Source of the DNA: Oscillospiraceae bacterium
GTDB lineage: Bacteria > Bacillota > Clostridia > Oscillospirales > Ruminococcaceae
Length of the DNA: 62,834 bases
NCBI GenBank assembly: GCA_017550285.1
Contig: JAFZPP010000044.1
Span: 1 to 62,834 of the forward strand
Direction of reading: 5' to 3'
Part shown: positions 5,542 to 10,153 of the stretch, one piece after another
Layout of the letters: each line of letters begins with the position of its first letter
Numbering within the stretch: position 1 is the first letter of the stretch
Position numbers and translations under genes: made by a program
The notes under the pieces: generated by a model
The model's database searches: none
Told to the model about the DNA's origin: nothing
The model's input: only the letters and a program-made list of their open reading frames with translations

Positions 5542-6186
5542 ATGACGGAATTGATCCGTCATACGATTGAGTTTATCAAGCGGAAGCCTTATGGACGGCA
5601 GCTGCTTGTGAAAGTTAAAGATGAAGTACAGCTGATTGTGGATGTGACACAGCAATATGAGCTGTATGACCGAAGAAAGGTCGTCATCGTCAATTCCCAC
5701 AATCCAATCCGTCACGCCTATTACCGTGAGTATCGAGCATTGCAGCACCTGTGCTTGCTGATTTTGAAAAATCAGGAGCATAATATCGGATCCGGCTCTC
5801 GTCAGATCTATGGTATCCTGTTTGACGGGGCATGGCTGTGGGAGGAATACATTCACTCACTTGTCAGTGATTTCTTCTATCATCCAATGAATAGAAGCGG
5901 AGATGGAAAGCAATGGCTCTTCTCTCCGAAGAATGGATTGATATATCCAGATTTCATTGGCAAGGATCAGCAGCAGCGTATCATAGCCGATGCAAAATAC
6001 AAACCGTTTGGAAATATCTACGGGGATGACTATTTACAGCTGTTGGCATATATGCTGCGGTTCGACGCCAAGAGTGGATACTATTTCTATCCGGAGAAAG
6101 GTATATCCGTCGATCAGAAGATCGTATGCGACAAACAATCGACGCCTTGCAGTAAAGAACTAGCCTTGCCGGAATGGCGAGGCTAG
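5542..6186 (+). pseudogene. McrC-type restriction nuclease subunit, N-terminally truncated
   Basis: This 214-residue frame matches the C-terminal half of McrC, the nuclease partner of the McrB GTPase in 5-methylcytosine-dependent restriction. It has the helical region ELIRHTIEFIK, then the PD-(D/E)XK nuclease core with YPDF near residue 132 and IIADAKYK near 150. In-frame stops lie just upstream (TAA about 50 bases before, around 5490), and the N-terminal part that contacts McrB is missing. No mcrB is in the window. An IS66 element begins right after the stop. Likely a remnant, although the nuclease core looks intact and a short product from ATG 5542 is conceivable. Confidence 0.6.
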
Positions 6187-6673
6187 TAGCATCATGTATT
6201 AAGTGGTAAAATGATCGTCCCGACAGGCTGCGAGAACAGCTCCGTCAGGTACTGCTCTGTGTTCAATCCGTTTGCCTGAGCCGTTGCCAGGATCGAATAA
6301 AGTACAGCGCTTGCTTTCGCACCATTCGCTGTATTACAATGAATCCAGTTTTTCCTGCCAACGGTAAACGGGCGAATCGCATTTTCAGCGCGATTATTGT
6401 CAAGAGGAACATTGCCGTCCTCTAAAAATGTGTAGAGATTCGTCTTTTCATGCAGTGCATAATTCACCGCTTTCGCCAGATTACCGTTCCCGCTGACCTG
6501 TAAAGTTTCAAGCCGCGCAAAAAGCCCGTCCAGCAAAGGCTTGATCTTTGCAAGACGCTGTTGTTTTCTTTTGTCCGCTGACATTTCTTTCAGCTGGCTT
6601 TCTTCATGGTAGATACGGTCGAAGCATTTGACTGCTTCTGTTGCGTATGATACACTGTAAATTGGCTTTTCAC

Positions 6674-7079
6674 TGTATATGCCGGAAGCAAAACCGCATC
6701 TGCACGGACTCTGAACCGCGCTTTGCCGGTACCTCGACCGCACCTTTGCCGGTGTAGAACCGCACTTCATTTGGATGCAATCTGCATTGTTGTGGATGTG
6801 AGTGAGCTTTTATGCCGCAAAAGCCGCTTGACAGTGAGTAGGAGTGTGGTAGGCTGGTGGCCAGGCAGCAGCCCTCGTGGCTGCCTGCCTGTGCTGCCGG
6901 ACTACCGCGCTCATAGAGGCTTGCTGTCAAGTGGACTGTGGAATAAATGCGAACGGACTGAACGAGCATTATATTGCTCATTCGTCCAAGATTATCACAC
7001 TTAGTTGGGGTGCGGTTCTTGTCCGGCAAGAGTGCGGTCGAATCCCCGTGCAGATGCGGTTCTTGTGGCGGCATACACA
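6674..7079. mobile_element. 406-bp MITE-like element with 22-bp end-repeat arrays
   Basis: The ends are inverted: TGTATATGCCG at 6674 and the complement of TGTGTATGCCG ending at 7079, giving TGT...ACA termini. The flanking TTTCAC (6668-6673 and 7080-7085) is the target duplication. Inside the left end, ACCGC recurs at 6693, 6715, 6737 and 6759, exactly 22 bp apart. Inside the right end, on the other strand, it recurs at 7060, 7038 and 7016, also 22 bp apart, and the first motif is 19 bases from the tip at both ends. Such arrays are typical of binding sites for Tn7/Tn552/IS21/Mu-type rve transposases. No transposase is encoded, so it must be mobilised in trans. Confidence 0.88.
6824..6934 (+). 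other. Structured core of the 406-bp element (possible RNA fold)
   Basis: On the plus strand 6824-6834 pairs with 6924-6934 (11 bp, one G-U), 6842-6852 with 6902-6912 (11 bp, two G-U), and a GC-rich hairpin lies at 6860-6890. Because the wobble pairs work on the plus strand but would be A-C mismatches on the minus strand, a plus-strand RNA is favoured. Whether it is transcribed is unknown. Confidence 0.45.
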
Positions 7080-8228
7080 TTTCACTCGGCATCGCGTTGA
7101 CAAAAGCCCGGCGAACATGAATCATGCACGCGACATGCTTTACGCCGGTGACCTTATGGTAGCCGCTGAACCCGTCCCGCACCAGATAGCCGTGAAAGCC
7201 TTGCAGGAATTCCTGTGCATTCGCACCTTTTCTGGTTGGCTTATAATCGAAAATGACGATGCTGCGGTCATTCATCTTTCCGTTGCAGTACACCCACATC
7301 TTGGATTCGGTGGTCGCTTTCCTGCCTTCCTCATGCAGAACCTGAACCGGGGTTTCGTCTGCATGAATCACAGAACTGGTCAGAAGCAGTTCGTGCATTT
7401 TCTCTACAACAGGGAGACACCATTTCTCCGCTGCGGTCAGGATCCAGTTAGACATGGTTGCTTTCAGCAGCGGGATATGCTTCGATGCCAAATCTTTTTC
7501 CTGTCGGTGCAGCGGCACAGCTTTGGCATATTTTTCATATACAATATGCGCCATCAGTTCCGGTGAGCAGAAGCTGCCCGGAATCATCGGCTTCGGATAG
7601 TATGCCCGGCGGATATTGCAGCGCTCAATGTCATCAGATTCGTTGTCATGATCAGATGGATATTCACCGCACTCCGGACACTTATATGTGTATACGATAT
7701 GACGGCGGATATGGTATTTTGCAGGGGTAAATACCAGCTCGTCATAAGCCTTTTCCTTGCCGATCTCCTTCATCTCCGCTCCGCAGATCTCGCAGACAGG
7801 ATGTTCTTCTTTATGCTCGATCTCCTCAACAGGTAGTTTACTCATCCAATCATCATGTGTACGCTTTTTCTTGCGCTTATGCTCCGGGACAGTTATGGTT
7901 TCTTCGGCGGGTTTCACAGACTGTTCCTGTTCTTCCGGGAACAGTGTAAGCTGCTGACCGTTGTCCATGATGACAGAGCTTTGTTCTGTTTTGCGTCCGA
8001 AGACCTGCTTTTTTAACCATGCGAGCTGTTCCTGCACCAAAGCAAGTTCTTCTTCCAGAACTGAGACACGCGAACGGAGCGCAGCATTTTCCTGCGCTAA
8101 TGACAGTTCATTATGCACTGCATTCTGCTCAGACATACCGCACTCCTCCGTTCGTATTATCTACTTATATTATACCATAAAACGTGCAAAAAAGCAAGGG
8201 AAATGGCCGATTTTCCTTGCTTTTTCCT

Positions 8229-9052: not shown

Positions 9053-10153
9053 TCACAGGTTCTGCAGAATTCCGATAAAAAGCGGCAGATTGGTCTCGGT
9101 GTCAAGAATCATGAACACGAACGGTCGGTTCAATATCACGTATTTTCTGTCAATCGGCATCGCGCAGCCGGCAGCGGCGAGCATTGCCGTCACCGCAGCA
9201 GCGCGGGTGCCCTTCGGGTCAATTTCAATATGCGTCTTTTGCAGAATGCTGTCAATTTTCAGCGGCTCCTCCGTGATGCCGGAGAAGTCCGCGTTCTGCG
9301 CGAAAGCCTGCGTCATGCCCATTTCCGCGAGAATCGGTTTCAGCTCCGCAGAAAAATCGGTTTGGAAAACCGGTATGCCCGCCCGGACGTCCGCATACCG
9401 CCGCGTTTCGAGAATGTGCCGCAGCCGCTGAGGCGTGAGCGACATCGCGTATTCCGCCGCAGAGAGTCCCTCCTCCGGCAGAAGCGCCGCAAATGCGTAC
9501 GAATGACCGCGGTAATGCTTCAGAAATCCCTCGGCGCGGCCGTCGGAGAGATAACTGTTCTCATGGGAGAACATCATTTTTGTCTCCTGCTGTCTGCCTC
9601 TGAAGTCCGTAAACTGTTCTGTCTGAATATCGTCATCTTTGTAAAGCACTTCCCATTTCGCGTCAAACAGCACGGCGTTGATGATGCACAGCCGCAGGTC
9701 GGGGGAAAGCGTCCGCAGGATCTCCGGAATCATGCCGTCCGTATTTCTGCTGCACCATGCGTTGATTTCCCGCACGGTCGAATCATCAAAAGGGGCGGTG
9801 AAGATCTCCGCGCCGGACTGCTTCAGGAATACCTCCCGAACGCGCAGTCCCTCGCGGATCCAAACGGAATCCGCTGTTTTCAGGCGGCATTCTTCGCTCT
9901 CCGGCAGCGCGTTTTTCCAATCGGAAAGCGCGCTCTGCAGGTCCCGGAGCGGAAGTCCGCCGAGTGCCTGTTCCATGCCGGCAAGCGTTTCGCCCTTTGC
10001 TCCCCCTGCCGCAAGCGCGAGTGCCAGCGCCGCGGACAGCGGGGAAACAAGGACATTTTCATTTTTGCAGGAAGCGAGCCCGCGCTGAAACAGCTCCAGA
10101 GAAAACTTCGTATGTGCGTCTGAAAAGAGATTGCTTCCATTCTGAGTATCCAT
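9053..10153 (-). CDS. Serpin-family protease inhibitor
   Basis: A 366-residue serpin: FSLELFQRGL at the start, the breach and shutter segments NAVLFDAKWE and FKGT-like strands, the hinge of the reactive loop as GTRAAAVTAM near 330, then the serpin signature RPFVFMI. The hinge is rich in small residues, as in inhibitory serpins, although the canonical Glu of GTEAAA is Arg here. There is no signal peptide and no dockerin, so it probably acts in the cytoplasm or leaves by another route. AAAGGAG precedes ATG 10153. It follows the resolvase by 15 bases, hinting at arrival with mobile DNA. The target protease is unknown. Confidence 0.93.
   Translation of the reverse strand: MDTQNGSNLFSDAHTKFSLELFQRGLASCKNENVLVSPLSAALALALAAGGAKGETLAGMEQALGGLPLRDLQSALSDWKNALPESEECRLKTADSVWIREGLRVREVFLKQSGAEIFTAPFDDSTVREINAWCSRNTDGMIPEILRTLSPDLRLCIINAVLFDAKWEVLYKDDDIQTEQFTDFRGRQQETKMMFSHENSYLSDGRAEGFLKHYRGHSYAFAALLPEEGLSAAEYAMSLTPQRLRHILETRRYADVRAGIPVFQTDFSAELKPILAEMGMTQAFAQNADFSGITEEPLKIDSILQKTHIEIDPKGTRAAAVTAMLAAAGCAMPIDRKYVILNRPFVFMILDTETNLPLFIGILQNL

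Follow-up and report, generated by a model that had tools for sequence, protein, structure and literature searches.

Single-strand origins (ssos) are known from rolling-circle plasmids and conjugative elements, and filamentous phages also carry them. The classes described from rolling-circle plasmids are ssoA, ssoU, ssoT, ssoW and ssoL (PMC5703833). An sso is reported to fold when the DNA is single-stranded, and host RNA polymerase then reads the fold and makes a primer; its orientation matters and is not reversible (PMC5703833, PMC4595007). Here we describe a 406-bp insertion in a 62.8-kb stretch of DNA from an Oscillospiraceae bacterium (contig JAFZPP010000044.1; the whole stretch is called the window, and all coordinates refer to it). 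The insertion is a miniature inverted-repeat transposable element (MITE) of the IS21 family, and it probably carries an sso-type hairpin, i.e., a mobile single-strand (lagging-strand) origin. MITE and sso are each of known kinds; what is new here is an IS21 MITE with a probable sso of the type that bears recombination site B (RSB) as cargo. We found no account of an sso within an insertion sequence (IS) or a MITE in those parts of the literature open to our searches, which covered few subscription journals.

The closest precedent is the sso-like sequence of Mycoplasma integrative and conjugative elements (ICEs), which is situated between the transposase gene and the terminal inverted repeat (PMC3942029). 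In both cases the sso-like DNA separates a DDE transposase gene from an inverted repeat, but the Mycoplasma ICEs are large conjugative elements, whereas here the carriers are simple ISs and a MITE that has no transposase genes. ICEBs1, with sso1 (PMC4595007), and IMESag-rpsI, with ssoA (PMC5090054), are likewise integrating elements that have an sso. As described in those reports, however, they are conjugative or mobilisable and have a relaxase, and sso1 belongs to the pTA1060 type. Frpo is similar in that folded single-stranded DNA (ssDNA) with -35 and -10 boxes permits transcription from ssDNA, but it is described as driving genes in conjugative leading regions, whereas the window element has no known gene (PMC11541004). 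An IS5-family terminal repeat upstream of a plasmid's own sso is reported to alter host range (PMC12016507); unlike the present case, that insertion acts via its terminal repeat, and the sso belongs to the plasmid and is not IS cargo. With plasmid ssos in general, the hairpin shares its length, its one-strandedness, an RSB-like motif and promoter-like boxes, and its family is found in Rep_1 and Rep_trans plasmids. It differs from them in having TAGGCT in place of CS-6, in that R1, the model of the hairpin family, misses the ssoT of pTA1060 and pTA1040, and in its location in or beside ISs and MITEs.

The MITE occupies positions 6674-7079 (plus strand), has the ends TGTATATGCCGG...CGGCATACACA, and is enclosed by two copies of a 6-bp target duplication, TTTCAC (6668-6673 and 7080-7085). 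An initial annotation, made from the sequence alone, had proposed the TGT/ACA ends, the length and the duplication, and these are confirmed; the interval 6668-7085 that it gave is that of the element plus its duplications, 7085 being the end of the right duplication, and the element itself stops at 7079. Inside the left end are four ACCGC sites at a 22-bp period (6693, 6715, 6737 and 6759; array 6693-6763, plus strand), and inside the right end three on the minus strand with the same period (7056-7060, 7034-7038 and 7012-7016; array 7012-7060). From either tip to the nearest site the distance is 19 bases, as had also been noted. Exact ACCGC-N17-ACCGC sequences occur five times in the window, all inside the MITE, where 0.11 are expected (100 shuffles). 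A pattern scan of genome contigs found at least 117 stretches, including some from unrelated phyla, as chance predicts.

The insertion splits an IS66 tnpC gene on the minus strand into a 5′ part (7086-8136; PF03050, PF13005 and PF13007) and a 3′ part (6192-6673; PF03050), both of which match DDE_Tnp_IS66. When the flanks are joined without the insert, an IS66 TnpC of 510 residues plus a stop is obtained, in agreement with the 511 in-frame codons of the annotation. The joined junction was searched for in 30 genomes of the genus, that of the window included, and matches were found in 10. An empty site is present in one of these (G019:C163), where the match spans all 400 nt of the junction at 94% identity and has the target letters TTTCAC in a single copy; more distant matches across the junction, at 75-77%, are found in two places in G008 and in G010. 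The annotation had considered that the same 406 bp might stand at the same tnpC place in all IS66 copies, or that empty copies might not match the predicted junction. Other IS66 copies are without the insert, and the empty site agrees with the prediction.

The family of the element was identified from a sister genome (G008:C91), in which two matches to the ends, about 2.8 kb apart, enclose an IstA-type transposase of 516 aa (IS21 family NF033546, E 3.6e-76; rve and Mu-transpos_C_2 domains) and an IstB of 258 aa (PF01695, E 3e-44). The left and right ends of both elements can be aligned with one another, and their outer ACCGC sites then fall in register. Because ends and arrays are common to the window element and to this IstA/IstB-carrying element, the 406-bp element is a non-autonomous IS21-family MITE. 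The earlier suggestion of a small element movable in trans by a transposase that binds 22-bp arrays fits, and on the basis of the shared ends is narrowed to IS21; a larger element with the same ends and an rve-type transposase, as was to be sought, is the IstA/IstB element of the sister genome. An origin from Tn7, Tn552 or Mu was rejected, as the full-length relative is an IS21 element. We infer that IstA and IstB supplied in trans moved the MITE, and the ACCGC arrays, which align with the IS21 ends, are presumed to be IstA binding sites. The window element is thus like the IS21 family in its ends, in its multiple sites spaced 22 bp and in that three MITE copies are flanked by 5-6 bp duplications. 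It is unlike it in having no transposase genes and in having a hairpin that is absent from the full-length relative (L132), where R1 found none. At the flanks of that relative no matching target duplication was seen by eye.

Matches to the element are found in 8 of the 30 genus genomes, its own included. Full copies of the MITE in G125 and G318 (L143 and L144) are 98% identical over the core and are flanked by 5-bp duplications, ATCGA in G318 and ATAAT in G125; partial or decayed copies are present in G006 and G019. The search of related genomes for the same ends, proposed by the annotation, therefore did find related elements, all of them at other places. In addition, a 56-nt match to the left end of the MITE (86%) is found on a plasmid of Ruminococcus albus 7. 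A whole-element search of a phage collection gave no match.

The annotation described only the ends and the arrays and overlooked the interior of the MITE, where a conserved, putatively sso-type hairpin of 155 nt is located (6801-6955; the plus strand is the folding strand). It scores 161.5 bits with R1, although the window itself is among the 11 source sequences (alignment A2) of this model; RNAalifold gives 44 pairs, 19 of them with two-sided changes. With DNA parameters, 6801-6955 folds at -45.6 on the plus strand (z -7.0) and at -27.5 on the minus strand (z -2.1). The RNA fold of 6780-7000 is -119.7 kcal/mol (z -10.4) on the plus strand and -86.6 (z -6.7) on the minus strand. A search of the family with the core of the element found matches in 11 of 347 genomes, its own included. 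R1 matches 4 of the 30 genus genomes, at least 16 of the 347 genomes of the family (E 0.001) and at least 52 of 391 genomes of the class (E 1e-4), the window's own genome counted in each; the family and class figures are lower bounds, as 7-8 candidates were scored per genome, and the weakest rows (G685 and G696) may be false.

Covariation was assessed in A5, an alignment of 59 non-identical hairpins with E at most 1e-9, without weak members and opposite-strand echoes. Its sources omit loci matched elsewhere, among them L134, L135, L290, L332, L333 and the plasmids L414-L417. Bases are paired in 95.8% of 2401 cells, vs 75.0% in column shuffles and 32.6-47.9% with the partners slid, a comparison in which the R1 structure is favored over the slid ones since A5 was fitted to it. 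Two-sided changes are present in 34 of 42 pairs, where shuffles average 23.1, and cells with both bases changed number 481, vs 126.8 in shuffles. Wobble pairs are of the G-T/T-G type in 188 cells and of the A-C/C-A type in 21, and a single wobble pair of the base stem persists in 53 of 57 hairpins. The excess of G-T over A-C shows that it is the folding of a single strand that is selected for in this hairpin family.

At the base of the 5′ arm is an RSB-like motif (6809-6823, plus strand) that is identical in 12 of 15 positions to the RSB published for plasmid ssos, TTTATGCCGAGAAAA (PMC6395029); a motif similar to RSB is also described in PMC4598088. In most members of the family the 5′-arm base reads TTTATGCCGCGAAAG, which matches the published RSB. 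At least 12 of the 15 positions are found in 55 of the 59 A5 hairpins, always at position 8-9, and in 1 of 1180 shuffles, it being noted that A5 members were chosen by a model that includes the RSB region. A -35-like box, TTGACA, is in the stem at 6828-6833 (plus strand), and 16 nt after it is TAGGCT (6850-6855, plus strand), directly preceded by TGn, which may be -10-like or CS-6-like. In A5 the TTGACA columns carry 1.05-2.0 bits, vs 0.21-0.82 in five neighboring stem columns, and the TGn-TAGGCT block follows downstream of TTGACA and GAG. TTGACA with up to two mismatches, followed 14-19 nt on by TAnnnT, is found in 49 of the 59 hairpins. Variants at the TAGGCT site, namely TATAAT (L295), TAAAAT (L293 and L333) and TACAAT (L335), favor the reading of this site as a -10 box. 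Two other interpretations were rejected by eye: a Frpo-type outward promoter, because the TTGACA box points to the loop and not to the base on both strands, and an open reading frame after the GAGG bulge, because the frame differs between copies.

The R1 hairpin is also found on nine small plasmids of Bacillus, Exiguobacterium and Planococcus. Six of these have a rep gene: Rep_1 in L407 and L408, Rep_trans in L412, a G2P-type gene in L417, and an annotated "protein rep" in L414 and L415; none was identified in L406, L413 and L416. A plasmid search with an IS256-type hairpin gave no match. The Halobacillus plasmid NC_017670 was discarded as a carrier, as its blast match is partial and R1 does not match. 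Among phage-type carriers, the hairpin adjoins G2P-type Rep genes in L316 and L317 and is near a Zot/pI-like phage morphogenesis gene in L319. A first pattern scan of viral sequences gave 87 stretches; the 15-mer is present in 70 viral contigs, three of which (L368, L379 and L403) have strong R1 matches. Of 12 cases with a Rep gene, the hairpin shares the coding strand of Rep in 9 (L407, L408, L412, L414, L415, L417, L316, L317 and L368). The coding strand is a proxy only for the displaced strand, and these nine are not independent, four being Bacillus plasmids with closely similar hairpins. L331, L332 and L379, in which the hairpin is opposite in strand to a G2P-type Rep gene, have in addition a serine recombinase (by Pfam in L331 and L332, by eye in L379), as does L403, where the hairpin is likewise on the opposite strand. 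In L331 and L332 the hairpin is 12 nt from the stop codon of the recombinase, and in L332 it adjoins a tRNA-Arg gene.

By analogy with plasmid ssos, we infer a priming activity for the hairpin. The plus strand would become single-stranded during conjugation, transformation, rolling-circle replication of a carrier, or as a transposition intermediate, and would then fold into the hairpin. Host RNA polymerase would read the fold as a promoter and lay down a short RNA primer, from which DNA polymerase would complete the second strand. An IS or MITE may enter a cell as ssDNA or pass through a figure-eight intermediate, and could profit in either situation.

Several observations weigh against an sso-type origin carried by a mobile MITE. 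R1 does not match the ssoT regions of pTA1060 and pTA1040, as located by the coordinates of PMC4595007, even at E 10, and the best match in these regions to the 15-base motif of the hairpin is 8-9 of 15. With RSB present and the ssoT regions unmatched, the hairpin would be an sso-type origin of the RSB-bearing kind, outside the ssoT class, an assignment based on comparison with the published RSB and with the ssoT regions of these two plasmids. RSB is missing from 4 of the 59 A5 hairpins, i.e., a damaged copy (L133:1887) and the phage-type L261, L262 and L265, which are the hairpins of L316, L317 and L319. TAnnnT at 13-19 nt after the best TTGACA match is missing from 10 of the 59, including all five plasmid hairpins of A5 (L406, L407, L408, L412 and L413). 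The two motif arguments thus apply to partly different sets of members. Stem conservation is not confined to TTGACA: the following GAG carries 1.09-1.31 bits and the base stem mostly more than 1.4. The window and many relatives have TAGGCT where the published CS-6 is TAGCGA or TAGCGT, and the conserved G-T pair in the base stem could also be seen in a structured RNA. In 3 of the 12 cases with Rep (L331, L332 and L379) the hairpin is opposite to a G2P-type Rep gene. Lastly, a full IS21 partner with these ends is absent from the window's own draft genome (50 contigs, 96% complete), where the sole match at E 0.001 is the MITE itself; because there is one copy and no full partner, current mobility in this genome is unproven.

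The neighborhoods of the hairpin were examined in a context set of 29 of 34 loci. Left out were L321, the twin of L320, and L303-L306, which are weak R1 matches in G685; one of the latter is in a region resembling a group II intron reverse transcriptase, and they probably represent another element. Six other copies in G412 (L297-L302) were never in the 34-locus list. In 10 of the 29 loci a transposase gene abuts the hairpin with its stop codon or is separated from it by no more than about 100 nt: UPF0236/ISLre2 in L296, L307 and L334, IS256/Mutator in L310, L314 and L312 (a fragment), IS6-like matches below the cut-off in L313 and L329, IS30 in L315, and IS3 in L324. NCBIfam names support L307, L310, L313, L315, L324 and L329. 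A further IS30 case, L251, is outside the 29. Rep, phage or recombinase genes are beside the hairpin in seven loci (L311, a weak match, L316, L317, L319, L320, L331 and L332). Beside 12 others no mobile gene was identified (L308, L309, L318, L322, L323, L325-L328, L330, L333 and L335), the neighbors of L325-L327 and L335 being unscanned and several others scanned on one side only; L318 has FtsK-like matches below the cut-off.

In G412, perfect 9-bp duplications enclose the ISLre2 element together with the hairpin in 4 of 7 copies. A scan for inverted repeats and duplications revealed nothing convincing for L296, L298 and L302 of G412, for ISLre2 in L307 and L334, for IS256 in L310 and L314, for IS30 in L315, for IS3 in L324, or for L329. 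In L312 a 20-base inverted repeat is perfect but the accompanying repeat is only 4 bp long, and the IS6-like L313 has an inverted repeat of 15/20 with a low-complexity 7-bp repeat. Thus only in the G412 ISLre2 elements and the IS21 MITEs is the hairpin demonstrably inside a transposon. The hairpin is on the same strand as the transposase gene in ISLre2, IS3, IS30 and IS6-like elements, and on the opposite strand in IS256 elements and with serine recombinases. Nearest neighbors share the type of element in 22 of 32 labeled hairpins, where shuffles give a mean of 2.4 and a maximum of 9; this test ignores host kinship and near-identical copies, and some labels were assigned by eye. The ISLre2 hairpins are not nearest neighbors of one another, and repeated recruitment of the hairpin by ISLre2 is therefore suggested.

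Other hairpin loci have further repeats. In L308 (G707) and L330 (G563) the hairpin is enclosed by GTTTACA motifs, about 23-24 bp apart, within a repeated unit of some 370 bp, possibly an array-ended MITE of a second kind that bears the same cargo. Hairpins flanked by other repeats (TGAGCCA; GGTGGGGGATTTTT) that resemble array-type ends are present in L133 (8727-8882, G006), L252 (G235) and L255 (G174), and L328 has an IS256-like end by eye. Arrays of GGGGGATTTTT are likewise seen beside hairpins, and IS21 elements with the TGAGCCA, GTTTACA or GGGGGATTTTT arrays were sought at four loci. In the 2-contig genome G141 a tyrosine integrase with the hairpin occurs twice (L320 and L321), about 100 kb apart and in opposite orientation.

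An alternative that we consider unlikely, but deserving of attention, is that the hairpin is an sso by descent and a functionless passenger in ISs and MITEs, captured from a plasmid or a phage. MITEs can trap neighboring DNA, and such a capacity would account for a captured hairpin. Decay is also seen: the hairpin of L135 has lost its upper stem, and in L149 (G323) only the 3′ edge remains. The 12 context loci without an identified mobile gene point in the same direction. However, hairpins within elements still show two-sided changes, ten loci have the hairpin against or close to a transposase gene, and the agreement in element type between nearest neighbors is far above the shuffled mean.

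Less probable still is a structured non-coding RNA or untranslated-region element, transcribed from the plus strand and disseminated by mobile elements. The very stable RNA fold of the plus strand and wobble pairs of the G-U type on one strand only, including the one kept in the base stem, are in its favor. It leaves unexplained the TTGACA in the stem with its -10-like box, the match to RSB, the presence on rolling-circle plasmids and the neighboring Rep genes of phage type, and at six loci tested no Rfam family reaches the cut-off on the hairpin. The only Rfam match in the window up to E 1, mir-654, was rejected at 20.2 bits vs a cut-off of 63.5. If the hairpin were instead a conventional promoter in double-stranded form, or an insulator, serving to drive or shield transposase genes, the paired TTGACA and TAnnnT boxes of the 49 hairpins would be accounted for; but this is very improbable, as the orientation to the transposase varies between element families, the window element is without any transposase gene that could be driven, and a plain promoter has no need of a complementary 3′ arm.

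The figure-eight transposition intermediate is described as converted into a minicircle by host replication in IS3, IS30, IS21 and IS256 (PMC3299598), a copy-out pathway is described in PMC7780238, and the ISLre2 transposases are placed in the Mutator superfamily (PMC3942029). It is conceivable, though we think it rather doubtful, that copy-out/paste-in transposons (IS21, IS256, IS30 and IS3) and the Mutator-related ISLre2 recruit sso hairpins, read by RNA polymerase, as working parts, either for completing the second strand of the single-strand-joined figure-eight or for becoming double-stranded immediately on entering a new cell as ssDNA, and that through MITEs the origin is disseminated as a portable module usable by any ssDNA replicon.

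Two other features of the window were observed outside the MITE. The C-terminal part of a McrBC restriction component (5542-6183, plus strand; PF10117) adjoins the IS66 element and is possibly truncated by it. A gene for a serpin-family protease inhibitor is located at 9056-10153 (minus strand; PF00079, E 9.7e-74); to our knowledge, serpin genes are unusual in bacteria.

R1 provides an annotation handle for a conserved non-coding element that has no Rfam family at the cut-off in the loci tested. The finding also makes second-strand completion by copy-out transposons testable, as families for which a figure-eight is described, IS3, IS30, IS21 and IS256 (PMC3299598), are among those found with the hairpin. 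If the hairpin is indeed an sso, single-strand origins would be mobile in their own right, as cargo of a MITE and in or beside ISs, and this would offer plasmids a route to change their host range.

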